From: Labyrinthula sp. Ha
Lineage: Eukaryota; Sar; Bigyra; Labyrinthulida; Labyrinthulaceae
Direction of reading: 5' to 3'
Assembly (NCBI GenBank): GCA_015227615.1
Contig: JAALGZ010000005.1
Location: 930,001 to 994,000 of the forward strand
Length of the DNA stretch: 64,000 nt
Below, in pieces: positions 1,473 to 44,056 of this stretch; within the stretch, counting starts at the first letter, position 1, and each line of letters starts with the position of its first letter. Made by a program: the position numbers and the translations under genes. Below the pieces are notes generated by a model, which was not told where the DNA came from, searched no databases, and saw nothing but the letters and a program-made list of their open reading frames with translations.

Positions 1473-2680
1473 GTACTAATATAAAGAATACTTCACAGTT
1501 AGATTTAGAACTCATACATTTCTAAAGAGCGAGAACTTTGTTTTAATCAAAGAAATAGTAGAAAAAAATAACCTCGTAACGACATTCTGATTTCGTCCAA
1601 GAGTTCTTTTTAAAGAATGTGTATGAGAATTTTAATGAGTAAAACCACTGTTTCCCTAATTGTAACTTCCATTCTTAGCATCGATTGTATGGTAACATTC
1701 GATTATCGCCGTACCGAGTACTGGGCTTGGCTTTAAAACTTTGTTGATTACCGAGGAATCAAGGAAACTTACTGTTTATAGAAACCGTAGGCTTAAGATA
1801 TACAGCTGAATGGGTACCCTCCACTCTATATAATGGTAGTGTAGCACCTTAAACCTTAAGATGGATCTAATATCATTTTCCACGACAATTGTGCCCTTCA
1901 AACGTGAGTTCTTCATGCACACACTATGACTTTGAAATAGCTTGGAAAAACGCTAAGGTTAAACATTTGTATAATTCCCATTTAAATAAGAACCGAAAGG
2001 GTAATGTCTTAACTCTTCTTATTTTTCGATTAAAAAATAATTCATTGTACGCCCATCAAGCGTTAGAAGCAATTAATACAAAGTGAAATGTTCTCTGTTG
2101 TCTTGTACGTTATTTCTGAATGCTGCCAATTGGTTAACATGCTATTATTAGAACTGAAGTACCTAAGAGCAACTAGGGTACTCAACCCACTCATGAATGT
2201 TACCTACCCAACTACACAGTTACTCACCTGTTCATATGAAAGCAAAATCCAGTGGTAACAGTCTGAAATGTAGCGTAGGTACCTTTGCAATTTCATTGTC
2301 ATAACTCCTCCAATTAAGACTATTGATATTAGGAAATACTGAGAAGTGTTGCTTAGTATAGAATTTGGAAAAGGATGATATTCTCATCAATGTGTTGTGT
2401 TGAAGTTGTTCTTGAGCTCTATATTTCTACAGGATATATCGGAATAGAAACTTGCTAGCAAGCTACAGATCGGATACTCTAAAAATCTTTGAGCAAATAA
2501 TTTGAGAAACCTTTCCTTTTTAAACCATGATAAAGTTTCTAGAGTTTACCCCATTGAGTTCTGTGCTTGAAAGTTTCTTTAATAATATTCTTTGAAGGTT
2601 ATGTTTTGAGTAAATCAACGGACAGTTCGAGAAATTATACTATTGAAACCATGTGTTTCCTTATTTTGACTACATGTAGA
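1473..2680. other. AT-rich intergenic stretch
   Basis: This holds the 3' flank of the TFIIIC-like gene and the sequence up to the left LTR. Only one short open frame (1889-2086) occurs, with no recognisable content. I see no RNA gene or repeat. Confidence 0.6.
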
Positions 2681-2963
2681 TCGATCTGGTATTTGTGCGT
2701 CAGATCGCTCGGCGATTTTCCCTAGGTTTTATCTTAACGCCTGAACTCAGTGGTATATAATCTTCTTAGGTTGCCTCAGCTTCTTGAATGCGTTAACTAT
2801 GATTTCGGATTTCTCTTATATTCTTTCTTATTCTTATGTCTATTGGATTCTCACTATGACTCTTATGGTCATAGTATTCATCCAATCACTTCAGTCTACT
2901 CAACCAATCATATATACCTAACAATTTCATAATAATCAATAATACAAATCTCACATCGATACA
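2681..2963 (-). repeat. 3' LTR of the Ty3/gypsy element
   Basis: It matches 12007-12289 over 283 bp except at two positions near the tcacatcgataca end. On the minus strand it begins TGTATCGATG right after a purine tract, which fixes this edge. The other edge is simply where the two copies stop matching. It contains a 7-bp dyad (2854-2874, arms ctatgac/gtcatag) and a second dyad at its far end (2682-2707, arms cgatctg/cagatcg). Confidence 0.95.
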
Positions 2964-3769
2964 TCCCCCTCTTCCCATAAATGCGAAACTCCGCTCTGTC
3001 TAAGCACCGCCTGCACCTCATAACTTCCTGCTCTTCCGTATGGGTCAACCTGGGTTTCAATCTGCAGCCATCCCTTCTGCAATCCACCTGCCTTGGCGAA
3101 AACTTCCATTAATACTGCTTTTTCTCGTAGCGCCCACTTAATCCACTTCTTTACCGTTAACGGTTTCATCCCGTGTTTCGGTCGATCGGCAAAGAATACT
3201 TCCTGCGTTCTTAACGCCTCTAATTCTGCCGATCCTTTGACATCACGTCGCTTAAAGAAATACAGTACTTCATGCGATCGTTGAAATAGCTTCCCTAAAG
3301 CGCCCCTTATCTTTCCTCCTGGCGTCATTTTTGCCCATGTCCAACTATGAACCGGCTCATAACCGGCTTCCTTCATATAGTGGAAACCTTGTTCCAAACT
3401 CCGTTGCAAAATCCATACCGCTCCGTACTGGGGTTTTACCTTCTTAATTCCGACGTCCTTAACCTCCGTTTTGCCGTTTCCCCTTAGGTTCGCTTCCGCG
3501 TCTCTCCAAGGCGGGTCGGCTAAAATCAATTTTACCTCGGGTAAATTCGACGCTTCTCGGCTCCAAATTCCCTCATACGGATTAAGCGTATACCATACCT
3601 TCTCAGGTGGCGCTATGCAACAGTTGATTGTTACATCGCTCTCCTCGAAAAAGATCTCAAACACCCGTCCCGTGCACTGTACCACCGTGAGTTGCACTTC
3701 TCCGTTGAATGATATCAAGTAACGCCACTCCGCGCCCTGTTCAATTGGCTGGGGAATGTTCGTCAACAC
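2951..3769 (-). CDS. MT-A70-type adenine methyltransferase carried by the LTR element
   Basis: The 272-residue frame carries the MT-A70 signature ADPPWR (DPPW at about residues 85-88), the catalytic motif of METTL3/IME4 and of protist DNA 6mA methyltransferases. Later family landmarks are in the right order: WTWAK (143-147), the QRSHEVLYFF strand (163-172), a KHGMKP segment (198-203) matching the usual hS-KP motif, and MEVFAKAGGLQKGW (221-234) matching the ELFAR...GW motif. The family transfers methyl from S-adenosylmethionine to N6 of adenine in RNA or DNA; which substrate applies here cannot be told. It lies between the integrase and the 3' LTR in element orientation. Its last residues reach into the LTR. 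No conventional start lies near its beginning, so it may be made as the tail of Pol or from a spliced RNA. I know of no Ty3/gypsy element with this domain. Confidence 0.8.
   Translation of the reverse strand: MLTNIPQPIEQGAEWRYLISFNGEVQLTVVQCTGRVFEIFFEESDVTINCCIAPPEKVWYTLNPYEGIWSREASNLPEVKLILADPPWRDAEANLRGNGKTEVKDVGIKKVKPQYGAVWILQRSLEQGFHYMKEAGYEPVHSWTWAKMTPGGKIRGALGKLFQRSHEVLYFFKRRDVKGSAELEALRTQEVFFADRPKHGMKPLTVKKWIKWALREKAVLMEVFAKAGGLQKGWLQIETQVDPYGRAGSYEVQAVLRQSGVSHLWEEGDVSM
2964..2976 (-). promoter_or_regulatory. Polypurine tract of the LTR element
   Basis: Read on the minus strand this is GGGAAGAGGGGGA, directly abutting the TG of the 3' LTR. This is the position and composition of the plus-strand priming tract of LTR retrotransposons. 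Confidence 0.8.
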
Positions 3770-3829
3770 TCGCGGTGTTCTGGTCGGCTTCTCATGGGGC
3801 TCGTATCATATCCGAAAGCCATCCGCCTC

Positions 3830-5884
3830 TCATTCCGCTTCCTTATTCGCCTCAAAAGCGGCGACCATGGTTTCTATCATCCATCTGTATGTCGCTAATT
3901 TTCTGCATAATTCCGCCGCTTCCTTGACATAATTAGCGGCTCGCTTTCTATGCTTTCGTAAATCTGCCGCATACTTTGGTGCAAATGCTTTTACTATCTC
4001 TTCATTCGCAAGTGCCAGTGCTTGTTCGCAATCGGAAAACTGTCTCACACAACAAAGATCCGCGCGGCTAATCCTTTCCTTCGATTTCCGCGCTTTCTCA
4101 ATTTCCCAGTGTTCTCCCCTTATCTCTTCAAGGTTCAGCCGACTTAGTTGCCGCTGGATATAACCCTGAATCATCAATCTGCTCTTATGCGGCAGATACA
4201 ATTGATACTTCTCATAGTGGCCCATGCCAAATTTTAGAACCAACTTTCTTATCTCCTGCTTCTCCGCTTTTGACCATCCTTTTACCGCCGCCACATTACG
4301 CTGCTCCTGCGGTAGTTCTGTTCTTATCCCCGACAAGTATTTATGCCAGTCGCTGAATTCCGGGACTCTCCTTATTATCCCATCGACAGCATGTTCCGCC
4401 GTGATAAGCGCTTGTTTTGCTCTCTTACGCAATTTATCCTGATTCGGCCTGCGCGTTTTTTCCGATAAATGCTCCGTCAAGACATTTCGCACGTCTTCAT
4501 ACATCGTCTGAATAGGTTCCCATGTGTCATCTTCTTCACGGAAACCCCTCCATTTAACCTCTGCCACATATTTGGTTAAGTGAGGGTCATATCTGACGTC
4601 TCCGAAACCTGCTACTTCCAAGTGCGTAAAATTTCCGACGTAAACCTTCCTAAGCGCTTCCGACGGTACGAATCCGCTGGGCTCATAGAAATATAGCCAA
4701 CTTCCATGCACTTCTGTTGTCTTACCCTTTAGCGCTTTGATTTTGTAAACATTTTTAGAAACTACTTCACTTATTTGCACCGGCCCAGACCATTCCAGCC
4801 CCAACTTATCACGTTTTCTGGGAGTGCCTTTTGATGACATCAAGCACCAATCTCTCACGTTGTATTGAAGTAATGCTGGGTCTACAGCCGTCCTTTTTCT
4901 TCTATTATTTAGTACCTTCTGAAATTCCACATATTTAGCGACTTTTTCTTCGTATTCATTCAAGCGCTTCCTAAAAGCGGTGCTTAATTTATATAGTACA
5001 TCATCGTCGATGCCGACTAGTATTCTAGAACCACCTCCAATTCTTTCCACCAAAGGCGGAAGTCCTGAAGGTTCAATATATTGACGCTCTGGATTCACAT
5101 ATAAAAATAACTCATATGCCGTTGGTCCATTTTTGCGACCAGGTAGTTTCCGCGAAGGCACAGGTAATTCATTCATGGCGCCTTGTATTTTATTCAGTAT
5201 TTTAGGCCATTCATCCTCGTTTAGCCGATATTCGCTAACCAAACTTTTTAGAAAATTCAACACCTTTTTATTCAAAACTTCAACTTCTCCGTTTGTCCAG
5301 CTCGCGTAAGATACCGCGAAACTCTGCGAAAAACGAAGTTCCTTCCTAAGTGCCATCATCAAAGAGTTCGCAAAATGACTTCCGCGGTCCGTCACCAACG
5401 TAAAGTCCTTTTCTAATTTATAATTTGCCGCGAATCTATCAACCGCTTATATAACCGCCTGTGTACCCGGCGTCTTTGCATGCGTGAGTTGCGTAAATCT
5501 GCTAAAGGCATCCGTCAATACTAAAATATGTCCTATCCTATTTACATACAAAAAGTCTGCGACCAGGGTCTCGCGTGGTCACCTAGCCCTCGTCACCAAG
5601 CTATAAGTCGTTTTAATCGCCTTGGGGAGTCTGCGGCAATGTATGCAGTTATCTCTAAATAAGCGCATTAATTCAACCATTTTCTTCCACGGTGTATCAC
5701 CTCTTAGCGTGCGCTCCATAGCGGCGGGTATTCTCCATTCGAATTTAGCCGCTTCCGCTAAGTCCGCTTCGAGGGAACCATGTTTGTTCGCTAAATGTAT
5801 ATGAACCAATTGGCGTTCCAAAAGTGAAGTCGGAAAAATGATCTTTCCCGACAACTTTTTAATTCTAGAAGTTCTAGTAATCAT
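3830..5884 (-). CDS. Integrase region of the LTR element, with chromodomain and possible SANT-like domain
   Basis: The upstream end shows the integrase zinc-binding pattern (HLANKH...CIHC). The catalytic core is seen in VTDRGSHF and the later glutamate segment NGEVEVLNKK. After an SH3-like part (EWSGPVQI...VYKIKALKG) comes a chromodomain at about 4469-4621, with the typical YVAEVKWRGF and DTWEP blocks. Further on, about 4133-4282, the segment starting KGWSKAEKQEIRKLV and running through KFGMGHYEKY to QRQLSRL has the spacing of a Myb/SANT helix triplet; that call is weaker. Chromodomains on Ty3/gypsy integrases guide insertion to modified chromatin. The region is part of a broken element. Confidence 0.85.
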
Positions 5885-6189: not shown

Positions 6190-8184
6190 TCACCATTCCT
6201 CTTCCGAGTATTCTTTCCTGATCTGCCGTTCCACCTCCTTCATAAGGTCTGGTGTATTGTTTTCCGGCAACGGCCTTCGCATAATTCTTCTAACAATTTG
6301 CCGACAATTCGTTGCCGACGGCTGCATAAAATACTTAGGGGTAAAGTTCATATCTACTTCTTCTACCCACTTCCTTCTTTTCGGTTGCAATAAACCAGGT
6401 GTCCATTCCTCAAAATCTCTCTTGATTCTAAAGAATAGGTCTTCATCACCAAGCAACGAGTCGTTTCTTTCCGTATATATGGACAAAGCATCCACTACCG
6501 CTTCCTGAAGCCATTCTTTAATTTTAGCGTCAGTGTCCTGTCGGCATTTTCCCGACACTCTTCTCAGACGTTTATTCGCGCGCGGTAGAACGGGTATTTT
6601 TCTTTCCACGTTTTGTGTTCGCATTATTATCATTCGAACAGCTGCCGCACCATCCTCTTCCGTCGGCGCTGCCCATCTTGTAAGCATATCGGCAAAAATA
6701 TTACTGTCGCCGTCTACATGATGGATGTCAACTAATACATGTTGCAAAATCACCATCCACCGCTGCAGGCGGTTAAGATGTCCATGATTAATCTTTGATC
6801 CACCTTGAAATATTCCCTTTAAGTTTAGGTGATCGGTGTACACCTGTACCGCCGTTGGATAAAAAGGCAGCAAGTATGAAAGTTTATTAAACGTTCGGAT
6901 TATAGGGTATAATTCTTTGTAACATATACCCCATACAAGTTGACTCGCATCAAATTTTCCGCTAAAAAACATCATCAGATAGACTGTCTTTTTCAACAAG
7001 TCTTTTCCGCGTTCTTCCTGTCGCGCTTGAAATAAGATCGCGCTATGATATTTATCCGACGCGTCGGTTACTAGACTTAAATCCATATTCCGATCGTAAT
7101 GCTGCAACCTTGCTTTTGCGGCATCCGCTAGCCTCTGTTTAAAGCGCCCGAATGCCGCCTCCAAATCTTCATTCCATAAAACGCGTTTTTTCTCTTTTAG
7201 CAACTTCTTTTTCTTACCTTTCATCTCTGGGTAAAACAGCATAATTTTGTCTCTAAGTTCCGCCATTTCAGGAACCGCCGACGTCAACCATTGCGCCAAA
7301 TGTAAGAGTTTTGCTAACTCGCATACGTATTCAGGCTTTGGGACAAGTAAAATCTTTTCATAATACTTCTTTGAATAATTCCATCCGCCGTTCCTTAAAG
7401 TCCATCCACAATACTCTATACCTGTGGTAAATAGTATAGACTTGGTCGGGCTGATTCTGACTTTCCACTTACGCAAGTTCCGCAAAACATCCTCTAAGAT
7501 TTTGATGTAGCGCTTAAAATCCTTTGCGTGAATTAGGGTGTCATCAATCCATTGAACGATTCCGTCGCCTTCTTTATTATAATTTTCCGACGCAATATGA
7601 TCCACCATACGCTGGTGAAAAAATACCGGAGTCGAATGATATCCCATCGGCGCAAATTGTAATTGGAATACACCGTAGGTTGTCATAAGATTGAAGTATT
7701 TCTTAGCGCGGTTCGTAATTGCTAATTGATCAAATCCGCTTACGACATCTAAACATCCGTAGAAGCGTGCCGGCGCCGTGTTGACCAGTTGAGTTTCGAG
7801 TATGGGGAGTATATTAACATCCCTATGCAATACTTTGTTCACCGCAACCAGGTCCAACACCATGCGCCAAGCATTATTTTTCTTAGGGACGGCAAAAACA
7901 ACCGACCCATAGATCGCTTGTTGTACTTTTTTCGCCATACCCTTCTCAACCATTCCGTCTAATTTTTCCTTCACAAACTCCGCCTTCCCAGGCCCTAATG
8001 GCCATGGCGTCGGCATTTTAAATTCCGCGCCCTGGAATGGTACGACACCCAGTGGTGGCAAAAGACTAATTCCTATTTCCGACGCGCTTGTCGCAAAAAC
8101 GTCTTCATACTTAAAGCATAAATCCATCAATTGGTTGTGCTGGTTTTCATTAGCGTCGCCAGCGGCTTCCACCATCTTCACCAT
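6190..8184 (-). CDS. Reverse transcriptase and RNase H region of the LTR element
   Basis: The 664-residue frame has the RT fingers and palm: VFAVPKKNNAWRMVLDL, then CLDVVSGFDQL with the first catalytic aspartate (about residue 146), FAPMGYHSTPVFFHQRM, and VQWIDDTLIH (about 211-219) in place of the usual YVDD box. RNase H follows with LVTDASDKYH (aspartate about 374), a YKELYPI glutamate and TDHLNL. The order RT, RNase H, integrase places it in the Ty3/gypsy group. WIDD instead of YVDD/YIDD and several long lysine-rich linkers suggest a lineage distant from the well-known fungal and plant chromoviruses. Confidence 0.9.
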   Translation of the reverse strand: MVKMVEAAGDANENQHNQLMDLCFKYEDVFATSASEIGISLLPPLGVVPFQGAEFKMPTPWPLGPGKAEFVKEKLDGMVEKGMAKKVQQAIYGSVVFAVPKKNNAWRMVLDLVAVNKVLHRDVNILPILETQLVNTAPARFYGCLDVVSGFDQLAITNRAKKYFNLMTTYGVFQLQFAPMGYHSTPVFFHQRMVDHIASENYNKEGDGIVQWIDDTLIHAKDFKRYIKILEDVLRNLRKWKVRISPTKSILFTTGIEYCGWTLRNGGWNYSKKYYEKILLVPKPEYVCELAKLLHLAQWLTSAVPEMAELRDKIMLFYPEMKGKKKKLLKEKKRVLWNEDLEAAFGRFKQRLADAAKARLQHYDRNMDLSLVTDASDKYHSAILFQARQEERGKDLLKKTVYLMMFFSGKFDASQLVWGICYKELYPIIRTFNKLSYLLPFYPTAVQVYTDHLNLKGIFQGGSKINHGHLNRLQRWMVILQHVLVDIHHVDGDSNIFADMLTRWAAPTEEDGAAAVRMIIMRTQNVERKIPVLPRANKRLRRVSGKCRQDTDAKIKEWLQEAVVDALSIYTERNDSLLGDEDLFFRIKRDFEEWTPGLLQPKRRKWVEEVDMNFTPKYFMQPSATNCRQIVRRIMRRPLPENNTPDLMKEVERQIRKEYSEEEW

Positions 8185-8799: not shown

Positions 8800-9243
8800 C
8801 TATGCGTTCTGGTGTGGCATCAACCCTGCTTTTTCCAGCGTGGGAGCTCCGACCAGCAACTCCTTCCACTTCTTGTCGTCGACTAGAAAGAACTTTATTC
8901 TGCGGAAGTCACGCTTCCAAATTCCGTCTACACGCATCTCTAGATCTGTGTAACCTACCTTGGTTACACGGAGATCCGTCGTCCCATCTGCCATCGTGAT
9001 CTTTTCTTTTACGTCTTCAATGGAGTCCATCATCCATGCATGTTTGTGAAGCGAAGCGACGCTCTCATCCGCGCCGCTATCCAGAATCGCGTCGGAAATG
9101 CGATCCCCCGACTTGATGTGGTGGATGGTTACATTTCTTCTTCCCGCTCTTCTAACCAACACATTTAAGCGCCTCGTTGCGTTGCGTTTCTTTCTTTTAT
9201 GGTCGTCACCTGGCGCGGGGAGCGCTAAAAACGAGTTGCGCAT
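8800..9243 (-). CDS. Retropepsin-like protease region of the LTR element
   Basis: A 147-residue frame carries the aspartic protease signature AILDSGADESVASL (DSGA at about residues 56-59), followed by the flap-like ITMADGTTDLRV and a strand ending in FFLVDDKKWKELLVG, as in retropepsins. It lies between the basic gag-like part and the RT region, the normal place for the protease that matures Gag-Pol. Confidence 0.8.
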   Translation of the reverse strand: MRNSFLALPAPGDDHKRKKRNATRRLNVLVRRAGRRNVTIHHIKSGDRISDAILDSGADESVASLHKHAWMMDSIEDVKEKITMADGTTDLRVTKVGYTDLEMRVDGIWKRDFRRIKFFLVDDKKWKELLVGAPTLEKAGLMPHQNA

Positions 9244-11850
9244 TTTCGGCTGCTTATTTTCGCTTCTTTCGTAGCGCTTGTTTCTGTAGCGGTAACCGCT
9301 CTGGTTGTTCCGCGGCTGATATCTTCCACGATTTGTACTTCCTCTATATCCGCGGGGCTCGGAGAGCGCGATCCGTGGTGGTAATATTTGTTTCTTCTTC
9401 CTCTTCTTGACTCGTCGGAAGATATAGAGTGCCTGCGTTTCTTCCTACTGCCGCGACGTATCCTTTGACGCGCCCTTCTAACCTCGAATTCCCTCGGCGC
9501 TACATTCGTTGGTTCCGGCGGCGTCAGATCCACATCTTCTGTGGTATCCATTTTCTGCTCATATACCGAGTTAATAAGTTCCTTAAACTTATTTAGCGAT
9601 TCTCCGAATTTTGACTTCGGTGCATCCAATTTAACCTTTAGGCGGCCCTCTCTGATCTGCAATTGTAGCGGAAGTCGCTTATTTAGCGCTTTTAATATTT
9701 CAATTTTTACGCGTTTTCTCTCAATTGCTTCCATTTTATGCATCCCCTCGCGCTGCTCATATACGCGTTCAAGCGCTCTAAAAATGGACCCTCGCTTGGC
9801 CAGGTCACCTTTTCCGCAATAGTGCGTAGCGTATCCTCTCCTTCGTACGCTTCATGTTCCGACATATACCTTCTCAGATAATCGACGAGCCCTTCCTTCG
9901 TCACACCTGAACTTGACAGGCTCTGCTTCAGCTCTGGATCGACGTAAATCCAGAGATTCGGCTCTTTCTCGCCGTTGTATACGTCTAAATATGCATCGCG
10001 CATATCCAACATGGCGCGGATGTCTTTTACTTTTAGCGACTTTAATGTCTTAAATTTGCAGCCATACGACCTCCATGCCCGATCGCGACGCGCATCCTCC
10101 GCCTTTTGTCTTTGAATTTCGGTTACTTCATCCGTGTCCTTCGATTTCTTTAGCGCCTGAGCGGTTACTTCCGTCAGTTTCGCTAAAATGGACTCCACTC
10201 CGCTCATTTTTGCCGACAAAGTACAAACACTTTCTTGTGTTGCTTCGGCCATCGACCTTGTTTCCGCAAAGTCGGAAAGAATTCTTCCGTGAGCCGGGGT
10301 TGACTTAGGCGTTTGCGGATGATGAGAGTTTGACTCAAAGGCGCTACTTTACTCGATAGCCGACCTTTGGAGCTCTCTCACTTTTTCCACTTCCGCTCGA
10401 TAAAGCTTCTTCATGTCTTTTAACTCCTTCGATATTCTTTTTATTTCCGCTTTATTTTTCTTCCGCTCCTCATCTACAACCTTCTTCATGATCGTCGTAT
10501 TACGATCTCTAAGTACCGACTCCGTCACCAACGACTGTGCTTTAATCCTCTCATTTGCCGTCGTTAGCGTATTTATGCGCTCCTGCAATCTATTTCCCGC
10601 ATCCGTTCTGGTATGTTCCGAAGGTCTTACTTTACGTTTCGGCATCCTCATCGATACTCCTGCGGCGGGTTCCGCCTTTGTTACCCACCTAAAGGGCGTA
10701 ATCCGCCTCGGACGGTCTGGGTCATCATTAGCCGATAAGTTGGGCTTCGGCAACTTTCCTTTTATAACCGCCATACCTTTATCGGCCATAAACTGCACCG
10801 TCGTTGTAATTAGACCTTCCGTCGAGCGGAAAAACCAAGTCGGCGTATTTGTCTTCAACACCTGCAACCGAGTCTTTTTGCGATGCACCACCAACTGCCC
10901 GAAAGACATCTCCTGATTTTCTCTAAAATTCGGAGTTGCCGCCAGCATGTATGCTACTCTTCCGCTTATAGGTACTCCGTCGAGTTCTCTTTTCGACAGA
11001 GCGAACATCAACAAAAGCGGGTAACTCGAGGTTTGGTGTATGTTCTTTTTCTCGAGCATTTCTACCGCCGTCTTACCTTCCATCTTCTTTTGTGCCTCGC
11101 GAAGATCCTCCTCGCAAATTATATACCTTTTTGGAGTAAATCAGCGAGGCGTCTTTAAGTAAAACTCGCACTGTTTCCGAGTCAACCTCTTTTTCCGCGG
11201 AGTCTTTGGTGTCGCCTTCTTTTTTGCCGCTTTCTTCTTTGGCGTCGGCGGAGAACTTAAATTTACCGTTTCCGCCTCGGCATTCTTATTCCGACCTTTG
11301 AAATAACCCGTTCGAGGGTTGTCGGCTTCTCAATATTAAGCGCCTCGTCGCTCGAGGCTGCTTCATCATCCGGCACCAGAGTCGGCAATATCGGCTCGAC
11401 CTCCTTAGCCGCTGTCGTCGGTTGCGTTAAATCCATAATATCCACCTCATCTCCGACAACGACGGCTATTCTTTCCGCCTCATCTTCTACGACGGCGGCT
11501 TCGCTTTCCGCTTCATCTTCCGCGACGGCGGCTTCGTTTTCCACCTCTTCCGTTTCGGATATAACCGCTCTGTCGGCTACCGTGTTTGGCTTAGTGTCAT
11601 CCCGACCCGTCGCTCCCGTTGTGACACGGTTCGCCTGTGTTGCCGCTTCCTCGTCGGCTATTTGGCTGTCGTTTTCCGACGCGCTATCTTCAGCGGCGCC
11701 CTCAGCCTCGTCATCTGTCGGCAAATTAAGCGATTTTCTCAGCGCCGCGCGCTCATCGTCGCTTATTTCTTCATTCCGACCCTCGGCTTCAGTTTGACCT
11801 CCCATTTCTTCGTTATCCTCGTCCGATGACGAGTCAGCACCAAAGAGCTC
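9225..11850 (-). other. Gag-like region of the LTR element
   Basis: From the 5' LTR inwards: an acidic, low-complexity part with repeats like EAAVxEDEAE (around 11450-11550 of the window); a long charged coiled-coil-like part ending in KRISKELKDMKKLYRAEVEKV; a helical part that could be capsid; and a very basic stretch near 9350-9480 rich in RR, RRGSRKKRRH and SRSPSP, which could take the role of nucleocapsid. No CCHC knuckle was seen. Assignment as gag is by position and charge, not by a matched family. It is part of the broken element. Confidence 0.55.
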
Positions 11851-11989: not shown

Positions 11990-12003
11990 ATTGTTTAAAC
12001 AAT
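11990..12003. repeat. 14-bp perfect palindrome at the primer-site position
   Basis: ATTGTTTAAACAAT lies 3 bp inside the 5' LTR, where the primer-binding site is expected. No TGG start complementary to a tRNA 3' end is seen there. Confidence 0.6.
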
Positions 12004-12006
12004 AGT

Positions 12007-12289
12007 TCGATCTGGTATTTGTGCGTCAGATCGCTCGGCGATTTTCCCTAGGTTTTATCTTAACGCCTGAACTCAGTGGTATATAATCTTCTTAGGTTGC
12101 CTCAGCTTCTTGAATGCGTTAACTATGATTTCGGATTTCTCTTATATTCTTTCTTATTCTTATGTCTATTGGATTCTCACTATGACTCTTATGGTCATAG
12201 TATTCATCCAATCACTTCAGTCTACTCAACCAATCATATATACCTAACTATTTCATAGTAATCAATAATACAAATCTCACATCGATACA
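12007..12289 (-). repeat. 5' LTR of the Ty3/gypsy element
   Basis: It pairs with 2681-2963, with two differences in 283 bp. Read on the minus strand it starts TGTATCGATG and contains AT-rich TATATA segments that could serve as a promoter. It carries the same two dyads as its partner. Confidence 0.95.
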
Positions 12290-25134: not shown

Positions 25135-28100
25135 CTATACGACTATTTTATCAGAAGGTTTGTAATGCAACAACTCATACCCAAAGTTGTCAAAGAGTTC
25201 GCTAAATCTACTGTCGAATTTAAGTCTATTCAACCTGGTAAGGTACATTGCTCCACTAAGAACTTGAAGGTTTGCCTGAACAACGTCTGGAAACTCCCCA
25301 GAAACTTCAGGATCAAGATATGTTCCTTGAATAAAGTCATTGAACGCACCAATTGCTGGCCCACACCAAATTTGATAGTCCTGCTTTCGAGATACATCTC
25401 CAGAGTTTGCCCAGAAACTACTCAATCCAAGGTACCATCTAAAGCACAGTGACATCTTGAGCTTAGGATCAGAGTTCTCAGCTTTATCTATCTTCTCTTT
25501 ATTATGAAGTCTATTAATATAAAAGTCCTTGGTCTCTTCCCAAACTTCAGCTATGGTTTTCTTTAAGATTCGTTTCTCTAATGCTTTGATTTCACTTTCA
25601 GGCATCTCATCAAAAGAGTTGTACTTATAGAACAAATCATACAACTTCTTTGCTCTAGATGGAAACATAGTTCCTTTCTTCAGAACTTGTAACTTAACTC
25701 CTTGTTCAAACATATCCGCTGCTGGCGCCATGGTAACGTCTGAGTACGAAGCCTTGGACAGATAACCTCTCACAGTATCACAGGTTCCAGATTGTCTTGC
25801 CATTTGATTAATAGTACCAGTCACTACAAAAGCGGCTCCAAGCGCAGTCGCAGCTTGTACAGCAGCAGGGCAACCTATACCTCCACCACATCCAACTCTC
25901 ACCTCATAAGGGTAACTTAAGTTTAAGACTTTCCCACGGGAAGTAGTTGTGAGTTTAACACTTTTGGTGAAAGTTTTCTTTTGCTCCTCAAAGATCTTTT
26001 TACGCAGATTGATAACAAGAGGGAGAATAACATGGAGTTGTCTGTTGTCAGTGTGTCCTCCCGAATCTGCTTCTACTGCAATATCGTCGGCAAGGGGCAA
26101 AAGACGAGCAGCCTCCGCTTGAAGTTCCGTGATTTTGTTTGCAGCTAGCAACTTCTTCAAAAAGCTTTCAGGAGGAGGTCTAAGAAAGCATTCAGCTACC
26201 TCAGTTCTTGAACACTTCGCGATTAACTTGTTCTTGATGTTAACCTCTAGCTTTGAACCAACTTTTTTAACTTCGTAACCTCGTACTCTGTAGTATACAA
26301 CAGAAGGAGTAAGGTTCATGAAGGCAGATGCTTCAACCACCTTGACACCAAACTTCTCAAATAGCTCTACGTTTCCTTCTTCAAGGTTAGGATCAAAAGG
26401 TGAGTGAATCAAGTTCACAGCAAACGGGTTGTCTCCAAGTTCTTCTTTGATTTTGACAAGTGCTCTCTCAACTGCATGCATAGGAAGACCTCCAGCTCCT
26501 AGAGAACCGAGAAGATTAGCTTTTCCCATAGCTATAACAAGATCAGCAGAGGCAATTCCTTTAGCCATTGCACCACTATATAGATTTGCATTGACGCCAT
26601 AGAAATCCATAAACCTTCTGTCACCAACGTTACCTAGGTTAATCTCTGGTAACACAATACCTCCAACACTGACAGGACCTTTAAAGTTCAATAATTGTTT
26701 CTTTAGAGCTAGAGGATCAGAAGGTATAGCGATAGGCTCAGCAGCAACATGTCCATTGCGTTGCCCAACTTTGGTGAAGTTCACACGAAGGTTCTTCGTG
26801 GAATAAACCCTCAAATCATCAACAAAGAGAAAACCATCACAAACAAGCTCTATCTTGTCAGAAGACTCGTCTAGCGATACGATATGCACTTCGGAGTCCA
26901 TCCTCTTAGCTTTATTATTCATCTGACCCCGGTATTTCCAGGATGTGCTTCCAGTTCCGAGCTCTACTTTCCACTGACTTGTATCACCTCTCTTTTCAAG
27001 CATGAAGGCCAAATAAGTTTCCATCAAGTGATACATAGACTCAATACCCAAACTTCCAGGCATAACAGGATCGTTCCAAAAGTGACAGGAGAAGAACCAA
27101 TCTGTTGGATCAACCATCTTACTACCATGAACATACCCCTTCTTTGATAGTCCAGAACCCTCTACGATGTTGATTGTATCTACATAACTGTGCTGCTGGG
27201 TTTGTCTCATGTTAATTACACTGACATTCATAGCTTTTGCCTCTGCTAGAACATTCGTGTATGTTTTCGCTGGCTTTACATTGTTCTCCTCAAAGAAAGG
27301 TCTTGATTTCTTACCATTGTCCAACCCAACTTGAGATTCAAAGACTTTTGGTTCGAACCATCCGAAACTGGTCTCCCCACTATAGAATGGTACTAACTTA
27401 GTTTTCTTTCCTGCGACTCCATTGATAGTTTCATAGTTTTCAAGATAGTTTTGTAAATCTCCATCTCCATAAGTTTCGTCTACCTTAATAAACAGTTCGA
27501 AATAAAATCTATGAATTCCCATGTTTCCAAGCATATTGTATCCAAGGCACTTGGTCTTGTTGATAATTGTCTTTCCTGCTAAAAGCTTGACCAAGTCACC
27601 TTTGTATTCAAGCTTAGAAGAGGCATCAAGATTTCTAAATAGAAGATCCTTCTTTTTGAAAGTTAGAGGTGCCTTCAAGAAACTTGTTAACATACCAGAA
27701 GTCTGTAGACCAATCTCCATTAAAATACTGTAAGGAATTGAACCATTTTCAAAAAACCAAGCATCCTTAGGAACATCAAACTCTGCGTACATCAAACCCT
27801 TGGATGGATTTAAGTCAACCCCATAAGTTTGTTTCCTTTCTAGGTCTACCATCTTTACAATTCTAGTCACAAATGCCAAGTCGAAAGCAGGACTTCTTGA
27901 AGTAGCACTGTCATCAAACATAGCAAACTCATCCCCGAAGCAATTGCTCACTTTTCCACACATAAATTCAGCCATGTTCCAGCTTCCAATAGGGAGCTCA
28001 CCAGGTGTAAAGTTCTTGTCAATGTCATGAAGAGAACCATCAGCTTTCAAGAAAGGAATCATCGTAATTTGGCGAGGGGGATATAGACTTGGTGTAAAAT

Positions 28101-29574
28101 ACAAAGGAGGTGCACCAGCAGCTTTGAATAGATCGTTCAGCGGGTGCCAAGTGTTAACAGTCTTGGTCAACGGATCTCCTTTCTTCCAGTGTTCAATTGG
28201 AGGATTCTTCTTTACAACACCAGTGGAAGCAGCTGGCTCTAAACGCAATCCAATACCTTTGAAGTCAACAACGATCTTCTTGTTTAGATCTCCTTTTCCG
28301 TAAGACTCAAGCTCTGAAAGATCAAAACTTTGACCCTTTCCGTAGTCTACATCAATAATATCAACATCAGCCACTGCATACGGTTCACCATCTTTAATTC
28401 CCATCTCTCTAACTTCCATAACATAAACAAGTTTTCCCTTGTGAGGTGAGATCTGCCCTCTGCATCTAACTTTGTTTCCCTGTCCGTTAACAGGTCTGAA
28501 TTCAAAACCTTCAGCAATTCCAGGTTTTAAACACAAACCCAACCACATCATATAAAGCTTCAACAGCTGCGAGCACCCGTCAGACACCAATGACCCTGCC
28601 ATGACTTGATCCTTTACAAAGTGACAGGGGAAGTACCAGTGATTCGGGTCGAGCTCTTTTTCTCCAATAATCAAACCCAAACCATAAATACCGCCGTCAG
28701 GAATGACGTGTGTAACCCTGTCAATCATAAGCATCTTCTTAGTCGCTATCTTATGTGTGAAAGTCCTGGATACATCCATAACTTCAGCCCACTTTCCGTC
28801 GATTAACTTTTGCATGTCACTTTCAGAAAATTTATTCTTTTTGATAGGTTTGTGCATGTATGGAACAATAGGTGCTTCGCTCAAACTCTTAGTCTTCGCC
28901 AAGATCTGATCTCGTTTCTTAATTTCAGCAACCGTTCTAAGCACTCCTTTCCCAGCTGCCAAAGTTGCGTCGTCAAAGAAACCAGCAGCTCCATTTCTCA
29001 TTTCAATCAATAGCTTTCCGTTACAGTAACAATTGTATTCAAAAAAGAACATGGAAACTTCCATCTCACCAGTTTCTTTATTAGGCGCTTTGGCAAATCC
29101 ATTGACCTTGATATCATATACTAAGGTTTCACCCTCTCTCGCAACTCCGTAGAAGGTTAGAGTTGTATCCAGAAGTCTGTAAACTCTTTCTCCTTTACAC
29201 TGAAAGTCTATTCCCATGTAACTAATCAACATGAGATCACATTGACCTGATTCTACAAGTACAGCCCAAGGAATATCTCCACCTTGAGAAAGCTCTCCAT
29301 TCACTGGTAGGTCATACTCAGTGGTCATAGTCGCTCCAACTCTAAACTCACCGGGTTCTGCATCCATTTTCGTAACTCTGCTTACTAGCAAGTATTCTCT
29401 TGCTGGAAGTCTGACTCTGCGTCTATAGGAGTCAATGATCTTAAACTGTGGCCCAAAGACAGGTGCTATGTCACCCTCTGCAAATTCCAATAACTCGTCA
29501 TAGTCAAACACAACCGTGGTATCATCCTTCTGTTTCTCTTTTGACATTTCCCATACTGGAGTTTTTCTTGTCAT
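25135..29574 (-). CDS. PUFA synthase subunit C (two FabA-like dehydratases and an enoyl reductase)
   Basis: The 1,479-residue protein is close to the 1,502 residues I recall for Schizochytrium subunit C. The N-terminal half holds two FabA-like dehydratase regions. The first has WYFPCHFVKDQVMAGSL with the active histidine at about 318. The second has WFFSCHFWNDPVMPGSL with histidine at about 831. From about residue 960 comes a PfaD-type, FMN-dependent enoyl reductase: GSLGAGGLPM, EADSGGHTDNR, VGCGGGIGCPAAV and FVVTGTINQMARQSG. In this pathway the subunit dehydrates 3-hydroxyacyl-ACP to enoyl-ACP and reduces it, working with subunits A and B to make DHA/EPA in the cytosol. No intron or break is seen. 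Subunits A and B are not within this window, as expected from other labyrinthulomycetes where C is a separate locus. The chosen ATG starts MTRKTPVWEMSKEK. Confidence 0.96.
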   Translation of the reverse strand: MTRKTPVWEMSKEKQKDDTTVVFDYDELLEFAEGDIAPVFGPQFKIIDSYRRRVRLPAREYLLVSRVTKMDAEPGEFRVGATMTTEYDLPVNGELSQGGDIPWAVLVESGQCDLMLISYMGIDFQCKGERVYRLLDTTLTFYGVAREGETLVYDIKVNGFAKAPNKETGEMEVSMFFFEYNCYCNGKLLIEMRNGAAGFFDDATLAAGKGVLRTVAEIKKRDQILAKTKSLSEAPIVPYMHKPIKKNKFSESDMQKLIDGKWAEVMDVSRTFTHKIATKKMLMIDRVTHVIPDGGIYGLGLIIGEKELDPNHWYFPCHFVKDQVMAGSLVSDGCSQLLKLYMMWLGLCLKPGIAEGFEFRPVNGQGNKVRCRGQISPHKGKLVYVMEVREMGIKDGEPYAVADVDIIDVDYGKGQSFDLSELESYGKGDLNKKIVVDFKGIGLRLEPAASTGVVKKNPPIEHWKKGDPLTKTVNTWHPLNDLFKAAGAPPLYFTPSLYPPRQITMIPFLKADGSLHDIDKNFTPGELPIGSWNMAEFMCGKVSNCFGDEFAMFDDSATSRSPAFDLAFVTRIVKMVDLERKQTYGVDLNPSKGLMYAEFDVPKDAWFFENGSIPYSILMEIGLQTSGMLTSFLKAPLTFKKKDLLFRNLDASSKLEYKGDLVKLLAGKTIINKTKCLGYNMLGNMGIHRFYFELFIKVDETYGDGDLQNYLENYETINGVAGKKTKLVPFYSGETSFGWFEPKVFESQVGLDNGKKSRPFFEENNVKPAKTYTNVLAEAKAMNVSVINMRQTQQHSYVDTINIVEGSGLSKKGYVHGSKMVDPTDWFFSCHFWNDPVMPGSLGIESMYHLMETYLAFMLEKRGDTSQWKVELGTGSTSWKYRGQMNNKAKRMDSEVHIVSLDESSDKIELVCDGFLFVDDLRVYSTKNLRVNFTKVGQRNGHVAAEPIAIPSDPLALKKQLLNFKGPVSVGGIVLPEINLGNVGDRRFMDFYGVNANLYSGAMAKGIASADLVIAMGKANLLGSLGAGGLPMHAVERALVKIKEELGDNPFAVNLIHSPFDPNLEEGNVELFEKFGVKVVEASAFMNLTPSVVYYRVRGYEVKKVGSKLEVNIKNKLIAKCSRTEVAECFLRPPPESFLKKLLAANKITELQAEAARLLPLADDIAVEADSGGHTDNRQLHVILPLVINLRKKIFEEQKKTFTKSVKLTTTSRGKVLNLSYPYEVRVGCGGGIGCPAAVQAATALGAAFVVTGTINQMARQSGTCDTVRGYLSKASYSDVTMAPAADMFEQGVKLQVLKKGTMFPSRAKKLYDLFYKYNSFDEMPESEIKALEKRILKKTIAEVWEETKDFYINRLHNKEKIDKAENSDPKLKMSLCFRWYLGLSSFWANSGDVSRKQDYQIWCGPAIGAFNDFIQGTYLDPEVSGEFPDVVQANLQVLSGAMYLTRLNRLKFDSRFSELFDNFGYELLHYKPSDKIVV

Positions 29575-42043: not shown

Positions 42044-44056
42044 ATGTCTGTTGAAGGAATCGGAATCGGTATCGACTTAGGTACGACTTACTCCTGCGTG
42101 GGATGCTGGCAAAACGACCAAGTAGAAATCATTGCAAACGACCAAGGAAATAGAACTACTCCTTCTTATGTTGCTTTTACGGAAACTGAGAGATTAATTG
42201 GGGATGCTGCCAAATCTCAGGTGTCTATGAACCCATTTAACACTGTGTTTGATGCTAAGAGACTTATTGGAAGAAAATTTAGTGATCCTGCTGTTCAATC
42301 TGATATCAAACACTTTCCGTTCAAAGTGGTTGCTGGAGCTAATGACAAACCTATGATTCAGGTTGATTACAAGGGAGAGAGCAAAACATTTGCTGCTGAG
42401 GAAGTTTCATCTATGGTTCTAACAAAAATGAAAGGAACTGCGGAGGCTTTCCTTGGACAAGAAGTTAAGAACGCAGTGGTTACAGTACCTGCTTATTTTA
42501 ATGATAGCCAGAGACAAGCAACTAAAGACGCTGGAGTAATTGCTGGACTTAATGTTCTGAGAATTATCAACGAACCTACAGCTGCTGCTATCGCTTACGG
42601 TCTTGATAAGAAGGAAGGAGAGAGAAACGTGTTGATCTTTGACTTGGGTGGAGGAACCTTTGATGTGTCTTTATTGACAATTGAAGAAGGTATTTTCGAA
42701 GTTAAAGCTACAGCTGGAGATACTCACTTAGGTGGGGAAGATTTTGACAACACTCTGGTTGATTACTTTATGAAGGAGTTCAAGAGGAAGTTCAAGAAGG
42801 ATATGAGCTCAAACGAGAGATCGAAAAGAAGACTAAGAACTGCATGTGAAAGAGCAAAAAGAACTTTGTCCTCCTCACACCAAGCCTACATTGAGATTGA
42901 TGGTCTTTTCGAAGGTGTTGATTTTACCTCTCAGATTACGAGAGCAAGATTTGAAGACCTTAATATGCATTTCTTCAGAGCTTGTATGGAGCCAGTAGAA
43001 AAGGTATTGAGAGATGCTAAGATGTCCAAGGGAGAAGTTCACGAAGTGGTATTAGTCGGTGGATCCACTCGTATCCCTAAAGTACAGGAAATGCTTAAGG
43101 ACTTTTTCAATGGCAAAGACCCGTGCAAGAACATTAATCCAGATGAAGCTGTAGCATATGGAGCCACAGTACAAGCTGCAATTTTAACCACTGGAGGCGA
43201 TTCTGCTAAGTTGAATGATCTGTTGCTGCTTGATGTAACTCCTTTGAGTCTTGGACTTGAAACTGCTGGTGGTGTTATGACTACACTTATTGCGAGAAAC
43301 ACAACTATTCCTGCGAAAAAGACACAAACATTCTCAACCTACGCTGACAACCAACCTGGGGTATTGATTCAAGTGTTTGAAGGAGAGCGTTCAATGACAA
43401 AAGACAACAACTTGCTAGGTAAGTTTCAACTTGATGGTATTCCTCCTATGCCTAGAGGAGTTCCACAAATTGAAGTGTGTTACGATATTGATGCTAACGG
43501 TATTTTGAATGTTTCAGCAGTTGAAAAGAGTACTGGAAAGGAGAACAAGATTACTATTACCAATGATAAAGGAAGGCTCTCTAAGGAAGATGTTGAAAGA
43601 ATGGTTGCAGAAGCTGAGAAATTTAAAGCTGATGATGAAAAAATTAAAGAAAAGATTGAAGCTAAGAATGGCTTGGAGAACTATTGCTTCAGTATGAAGA
43701 ACAGTCTTAATGAAGAGAAGTTAAAGCCACATATTCCTGAAGATGATAAGAAGAAGCTTGAAGAGAAAATTGATGACACATTAAAATGGCTAGACGAGCA
43801 TCAAGAAGAGAATAAAGAAATCTACGAAGAAAAACAAAAAGAAGTCGAAGGTGTTGCAAATCCAATTATGATGGCAGCATATCAGAAAGCTGGTGGTGGA
43901 GCAGGCGGAATGCCTGGAGGTATGCCAGGTGGAATGCCTGGAGGAATGCCGGGTGGTATGCCTGGAGGAATGCCAGGTGGCTTCCCAGGAGGAGCACCAG
44001 GCGGAGCTCCACCACAAGGTGGGGCTGGTGGACCAAGTGTTGAGGAAGTTGATTAA
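42044..44056 (+). CDS. HSP70: Cytosolic Hsp70 chaperone
   Basis: The 670-residue protein is intron-free. The N-terminal ATPase domain shows [11 protein letters not shown], the [10 protein letters not shown] phosphate loop and [17 protein letters not shown]; the substrate-binding domain follows ([13 protein letters not shown]). The C-terminal tail has a run of GGMP repeats and ends in EEVD, the signal of cytosolic/nuclear Hsp70s that binds TPR co-chaperones such as Hop and CHIP. No signal or transit peptide precedes the [13 protein letters not shown] start. It folds nascent and stressed proteins in cycles of ATP hydrolysis with J-proteins. A perfect heat shock element lies 75 bp upstream, so this copy is probably the inducible one. 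The start codon context is A-rich. An attaaa at about 44131 could serve as a polyadenylation signal. Confidence 0.98.

Follow-up and report, generated by a model that had tools for sequence, protein, structure and literature searches.

The window analysed here, a stretch of 64,000 nucleotides from Labyrinthula sp. Ha (contig JAALGZ010000005.1, positions 930,001 to 994,000), holds, judged by its sequence, one damaged copy from a large group of chromodomain-bearing retrotransposons of Ty3/gypsy type whose Pol ends in two domains, one resembling p1 of the ciliate N6-adenine (6mA) methylation complex and the other an MT-A70 methyltransferase. A preliminary description had recognised an MT-A70 domain in the frame 2951..3769 of the minus strand, and PF05063 bears this out, with a score of 43.8 bits against a curated cut-off of 23.9 (E 3.4e-11). 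The order of the domains, their fusion in a single frame, the high copy number, the likeness to AMT1 and p1, and the selection on the methyltransferase are all direct observations, detailed below. Taken together, a methyltransferase that is nearest to MTA1, a p1-like domain upstream of MT-A70 and the low dN/dS of the methyltransferase make it seem that this Pol carries a p1-AMT1 module for 6mA, from which we infer methylation itself.

All features of the element lie on the minus strand. The 5′ LTR (12003..12289), whose minus strand begins TGTATCGATG, agrees with the 3′ LTR (2677..2963) at 284 of 287 positions and differs at three. The region 9225..11805 is presumed, on position only, to be what remains of gag; its ORFs (11263-11805, 10349-11083, 9707-10252 and 9225-9743) matched no Pfam family above cut-off. 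A protease-like ORF follows (8800..9243), with the motif LDSGA at 9070-9084, a sub-threshold match to RVP (E 0.19) and a terminal TAG at 8800-8802. The ORF 6190..8184 contains a reverse transcriptase domain at about 7396-7890 (RVT_1 3.5e-16) as well as an RNase H domain at about 6739-7089 (RT_RNaseH 6.4e-15). Compared with PDB sequences, the reverse transcriptase scored 66.8 bits with foamy virus Pol, the best match, and 54.7 bits with Ty3. The upstream part of the integrase is assigned to 5579..5884 by position and likeness to P0004, a protein annotated with rve; this stretch itself had no Pfam family above cut-off. The downstream part shares the ORF 3830..5398 with the chromodomain (about 4496-4564), where Chromo scored 23.8 bits against a curated cut-off of 25.1 and SH3_Tf2-1 17.6 against 30; the integrase core family rve was reached in none of the window ORFs scanned. 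A p1-like (Myb-like) DNA-binding segment at 4085..4282 was placed by alignment with segments of the family that do match p1. The methyltransferase (2951..3769; domain about 3059-3532, DPPW at 3506-3517) comes last, and the polypurine tract GGGAAGAGGGGGA (2964..2976) doubles as code for its C-terminus. The element is filed under Ty3/gypsy because of its LTRs, domain order and chromodomain; near-identical LTRs and the polypurine tract are established for the window copy only, LTR pairs at other loci falling beyond the 10 kb retrieved or not being detected. No target-site duplication was seen by eye at this one copy, where it may have been lost. The ratio of observed to expected ApT is 1.33 in the LTR (window 2677-2973; 39 against 29 expected), 1.00 inside the element and 0.87 across the remaining sequence of the window, an excess that is not used as evidence as it comes from one LTR. 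Elsewhere, the window contains a polyunsaturated fatty acid synthase subunit of PfaD/FabA type (25135-29574; PfaD E 6.2e-172) and an Hsp70 (42044-44056); the former by itself points to a labyrinthulomycete-like host.

The methyltransferase had initially been described as a gene lying between the integrase and the 3′ LTR. Its strand and the near-identical LTRs around it are as described; its status and its end are different. Its frame is open back to 3805 and is the very frame of the integrase/chromodomain ORF, from which two in-frame TGA codons (3806-3808 and 3830-3832) cut it off. It is therefore a domain of Pol rather than a separate gene. Furthermore, the final codons are the polypurine tract and the stop codon (TGA, 2951-2953) lies inside the 3′ LTR, which together with the shared frame shows that the methyltransferase belongs to the element. 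The window copy is broken at further places upstream of the methyltransferase, and by its sequence it is probably not working. An in-frame stop codon between protease and reverse transcriptase recurs at the same place in all eight copies looked at of the window's class, which we call class 1 (the window, at 8800-8802, and L014, L016, L017, L018, L022, L023 and L027). L022 has TAA here and the other seven have TAG, the surrounding sequence being GCN-stop-GAAGTCG. Such conservation suggests that class-1 elements make Pol by stop-codon readthrough.

Copies with long open frames show the fusion directly. In 13 of 13 frames reaching MT-A70 (L014, L017, L029-L035, P0006, P0008, P0009 and P0010), which had been selected as long open frames, Pfam places integrase and MT-A70 in one stop-free frame, with MT-A70 as the C-terminal domain of Pol after the integrase. 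The order in these frames is reverse transcriptase, RNase H, integrase and chromodomain, and the longest reach 1988 (L029), 2106 (P0010) and 2648 (P0008) amino acids. The domain scores are uneven: rve stays below its curated cut-off in six of the 13 (L032, L033, L034, P0006, P0008 and P0010), and Chromo exceeds its own in four (L033, L034, L035 and P0010). Proteins P0006-P0010 come from EukProt and ENA, and the arrangement therefore exists outside this assembly; a shorter public protein, P0003 (474 amino acids), consists of Myb and MT-A70 only. Among viral contigs, three matched P0009, alike only in the methyltransferase (28%), and none matched P0010 or L032; phage records resembled P0008 only in the methyltransferase part, in the best 5 of 72 matches.

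The classes (1 to 5) and the two groups used below are labels coined in this analysis; group A comprises classes 1, 2, 4 and 5 with P0010, and group B comprises L032, L033, P0006, P0012, P0008 and P0009. The position of the protease differs between copies. It was seen that in L032, L033, P0006, P0008 and P0009 a protease-like domain follows the integrase, chromodomain and p1-like domain and precedes MT-A70. Group B has the motif [LI]LDSGA between the p1-like domain and MT-A70, and in the full-length P0008 RVP reaches 21.7 bits there (cut-off 20.7), with no LDSGA-type motif before the reverse transcriptase. In P0010 and the window, the LDSGA-type motif stands before the reverse transcriptase. 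Near a class-3 element lies a 725-residue frame, L032:819-2993(-), which resembles an AAA-ATPase (PF09820) and has a weak PDDEXK_9 match.

The family is abundant. The one-off insertion of a host gene that the preliminary description had considered is contradicted by 142 matches of the window protein in its own genome (50.8 Mb). All of the best 150 of 354 candidates scored with PF05063 were above the cut-off, and 144 of the best 150 scored with Tetrahymena MTA1 reached E 1e-25 or better. Merging the searches gave at least 250 distinct MT-A70 places on 83 of 153 contigs. The merged set drew on 150 PF05063 rows, 87 of the 142 window-protein rows (the rest were judged to be second fragments or duplicates of known places) and an additional 16 MTA1 rows; it includes the host's own AMT1 gene, fragments of broken copies and possibly further genes of the host. 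Counted by hand, 51 of the best 150 PF05063 places lie in frames of at least 1,000 codons with the match free of stops. Matches of equal score occur at C132:835172 and 842412 (7.2 kb apart), C2:883288, C37:14320 and C148:52942, suggesting recent or duplicated copies.

Most of these places can be tied to elements. At 120 of the 150 RNase H places scored, a same-strand MT-A70 match follows within 6 kb, where about two would be expected by chance; in a first tally of 234 MT-A70 places, the misplaced RNase H pairings were one on the opposite strand and two downstream. RNase H lies upstream of 121 of the at least 250 MT-A70 places, a p1-like segment upstream of 111 and one or the other upstream of 171, leaving 79 of 250 with neither, all among the matches listed. 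Two loci once considered as host MT-A70 genes, L036 and L037, were dropped, both being pieces with a p1-like segment.

What kind of methyltransferase, then, has been joined to Pol? Within the PDB, the window frame is matched best by MTA1/AMT1 of Tetrahymena (E 7.6e-7). Nine element methyltransferases combined in a profile scored 213.9 bits with MTA1, 138.1 with METTL3, 80.0 with METTL4, 66.1 with METTL14 and 43.8 with MTA9, and L032 alone gave the same leader (134.8, 105.1, 34.3, 41.9 and 20.0 bits, respectively). Thus, among MT-A70 families with solved structures, compared with AMT6/7 represented only by MTA9/AMT7 and with AMT2/5 left out, MTA1/AMT1 is the nearest, and METTL3 falls 76 bits short of it in the family profile. 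The sequence P-x-R-G after DPPW is found in both AMT1 rows and in most element rows outside class 1; none of the 12 METTL3 rows has it over the stretch aligned, and something similar occurs in a single bacterial row. The host has an AMT1 gene of its own (C91:220764-221264, L038), which shares 56% identity with MTA1 of Tetrahymena (E 1.8e-64). A search for a host METTL3, of a kind that intron-broken genes can escape, led back to this AMT1 gene as the top hit among the matches listed.

In the phylogenetic placement that the preliminary description had called for, one group is placed better than the other. In a tree of 42 methyltransferase rows, group A shares a branch with AMT1, represented by two rows only, at a support of 91/91; group B is weakly joined, beside METTL3 at 76/75; and the 12 METTL3 rows form a clade of their own (100/99). 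A tree of 16 Pol rows has the same split between A and B, at 100/100, as the methyltransferase tree, where it is weak for group B. A single clade of all element methyltransferases is mildly rejected (AU p 0.027) in the presence of long branches, which means either more than one capture or a long-branch error.

The second domain strengthens the resemblance to the ciliate system. The Myb-like domain between chromodomain and methyltransferase gave, for the P0008 segment, 43.9 bits with p1 and 25.9 with the next protein. A profile of nine element segments matched residues 21-122 of p1 at E 2.6e-16, with the next protein other than p1 at 2.4e-4 and p2 only weakly similar (E 0.0073). The window segment alone had weak Myb matches and none to p1. 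Among the best 150 of 293 genomic candidates scored with the Tetrahymena p1 segment, 111 lie upstream of MT-A70 on the same strand, at 460-1054 bp (median 709), with RNase H also upstream in 61 of the 111; about one would be expected by chance, and in the control one pair was placed otherwise. The other 39 of the 150 have no MT-A70 among the matches listed, and nine of them have RNase H upstream. Elements with p1 and without the methyltransferase may exist, or the matches listed may miss their methyltransferase. The two best p1 matches stand alone, with MT-A70 absent nearby: C1:1284470-1284658(+) and C100:136117-136305(-), whose identities to p1 of Tetrahymena are 49% and 46%, respectively. 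From their similarity and isolation, they are probably the host's own p1 genes, belonging to its AMT1 pathway.

The methyltransferase evolves under constraint. Its dN/dS is 0.12-0.33 in all 17 pairs with usable dS, the remaining 4 of the 21 being saturated, and the bootstrap range stays below 1 in four of the five pairs tried, reaching 1.08 in L022-L023. For L029-L030 the value is 0.31 (0.40 in the bootstrap analysis), with 0.24 for Pol. In class 1 the methyltransferase is faster than Pol, at 0.16-0.20 against 0.07-0.09 (L013-L014, L013-L017 and L014-L017; three L011 rows were left out of the Pol calculation).

The catalytic aspartate is present in 21 of 21 element rows. Motif IV reads DPPW in 15, DPAW in three, DFPW in one and DPPY in one, so that DPPW or a near version is found in 20 of 21; L022 has none. 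Residues equivalent to the SAM contacts are kept to different degrees: K334 in 21, R357 in 15 and N360 in 11 of the 21. DPPW, K334, R357 and N360 occur together in, for example, L029, L031, L033, L035 and P0008; in the window row only DPPW and K334 are left. The N360 equivalent is absent in seven of seven class-1 rows, as is that of R357 in six of them, and N360 is also absent in three of three class-4 rows. Across the window and 20 further class-1 loci, nine have DPPW (the window, L009, L011, L013, L014, L016, L017, L018 and L024), nine an altered motif (L010, L012, L015, L020, L021, L022, L026, L027 and L028) and three (L019, L023 and L025) do not cover the motif in the matched frame. The PPW of DPPW is lost in L020, L021, L022 and L027, with long open frames in L021 and L022; between these two, dN is 0.25 and dS 0.95 (dN/dS 0.26). 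By analogy, and as a guess, L021 and L022 might resemble MTA9, the inactive partner.

As to function, we give an even chance to the proposal, based on these likenesses, that the p1-methyltransferase part of Pol methylates adenines in the element's own DNA. It would act alone or with host AMT1 partners, modifying adenines, probably at ApT, in new or integrated copies; the element would thereby gain the 6mA mark that AMT1 hosts put near active gene starts, which would help its expression and hinder silencing. The preliminary description had left DNA and RNA open, and the combination of an AMT1-type domain with a p1-type partner favours DNA. Several facts count against such a writer. Ciliate MTA1 needs p2 to bind SAM (PMC9174199), and the likeness to p2 is only weak; the copy in the window is broken; class 1 shows changes in its SAM contacts and often in its motif, and its methyltransferase is faster than Pol; N360 is missing in class 4 as well; and the 79 of 250 places with neither p1 nor RNase H upstream among the matches listed also speak against it. 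The wider version of the proposal is more tentative, and we would lean against it: that an LTR superfamily turned the AMT1-p1 complex into a one-chain 6mA writer within Pol, marking new copies as open and active at or soon after integration, with a protease beside the module in half of the superfamily and perhaps a dead, MTA9-like form in some lineages.

Other roles have to be weighed against the DNA-methylating one. The module might instead be a tether: its p1-like and AMT1-like domains would attach to DNA, or to the AMT1 complex of the host, and so guide integration to active, 6mA-marked gene starts, with catalysis dispensable. Its location directly after integrase and chromodomain would suit this role, as would the presence of an AMT1 in the host, the altered motif IV of several class-1 copies and the constraint that persists between the PPW-less L021 and L022. 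A pure tether, however, would not need the DPPW, K334, R357 and N360 that other classes keep together, and we think this role unlikely. Alternatively, the enzyme could act like METTL3, placing m6A on the element's RNA and aiding its translation, packaging or escape from RNA sensing. The two share a Pfam family, and group B stands, weakly, nearer to METTL3 in the tree; but the 76-bit preference of the family profile for MTA1, the fused p1-like partner, the separate clade of the METTL3 rows and the lack of a host METTL3 among the matches listed, in a search blind to introns, make an RNA substrate improbable. Slightly less probable again is a captured passenger, now decaying and doing nothing for the element. 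It would account for the broken window copy, the diverged SAM contacts of class 1, the altered motif at nine of 21 class-1 places and the faster evolution relative to Pol. It fits poorly with dN/dS well below 1 in every computable pair and a bootstrap range below 1 in four of five, with retention of the methyltransferase across families whose Pol is deeply different, and with a polypurine tract that lies inside the methyltransferase coding sequence.

The architecture extends a familiar plan. Chromoviruses have LTRs, a polypurine tract, and reverse transcriptase, RNase H, integrase and chromodomain in that order. The present family shares all of these and goes beyond them in its C-terminal p1-like and MT-A70 domains, and, in group B, in a protease that follows the p1-like domain rather than preceding the reverse transcriptase. 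DIRS elements, for their part, have a tyrosine recombinase. They likewise carry an adenine methyltransferase, but a Dam-like one, as opposed to the MT-A70 domain and rve integrase found here (PMC5890265). The same paper describes KnitGypsy-Dnmt3 of Klebsormidium nitens, a gypsy-type LTR element with Dnmt3 inside its Pol ORF. The likeness is close, with a DNA methyltransferase in the Pol ORF, many copies and purifying selection on the methyltransferase; however, the enzyme there is the cytosine methyltransferase Dnmt3, as against an AMT1-type MT-A70 with a p1-like domain, and the present family falls into many more divergent classes (PMC5890265).

With the ciliate AMT1/MTA1 complex (MTA1, MTA9, p1 and p2), the family has the AMT1-like catalytic and p1-like domains in common; unlike that complex, it has them fused in one retrotransposon polyprotein, with no clear p2 and, in class 1, without some of the SAM contacts (PMC9174199, PMC12695648). 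Ciliate work showed that p1 helps to bind DNA. According to PMC12695648, p1 and p2 are found together with AMT1, 6mA in AMT1 species sits on linkers where active genes start, Aurantiochytrium limacinum shows 6mA peaks at active gene starts, and the MT-A70 families are described as relatively static over the evolution of eukaryotes. The preliminary description knew of no Ty3/gypsy element with MT-A70, and we found no retrotransposon of any kind with this domain announced in the titles and abstract openings listed, a search outside which preprints and most subscription papers lie. Compared with the known retrotransposon-borne DNA methyltransferases, what appears new from the sequences is a different enzyme family, accompanied by its partner domain.

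A single genome contains several hundred domains of AMT1 type, most of which can be traced to transposons and are joined to a p1 relative. In such genomes, counts of MT-A70 genes and 6mA found at repeats may reflect transposons, and should be read with this warning in mind. The family also makes a debated mark directly testable: if a parasite writes 6mA, this should be because it benefits from the mark. If the wider version of the proposal is true, the elements would confer on themselves a DNA mark that activates, the reverse of silencing by the host, and their Pol-borne writer could account for part of the host's 6mA.
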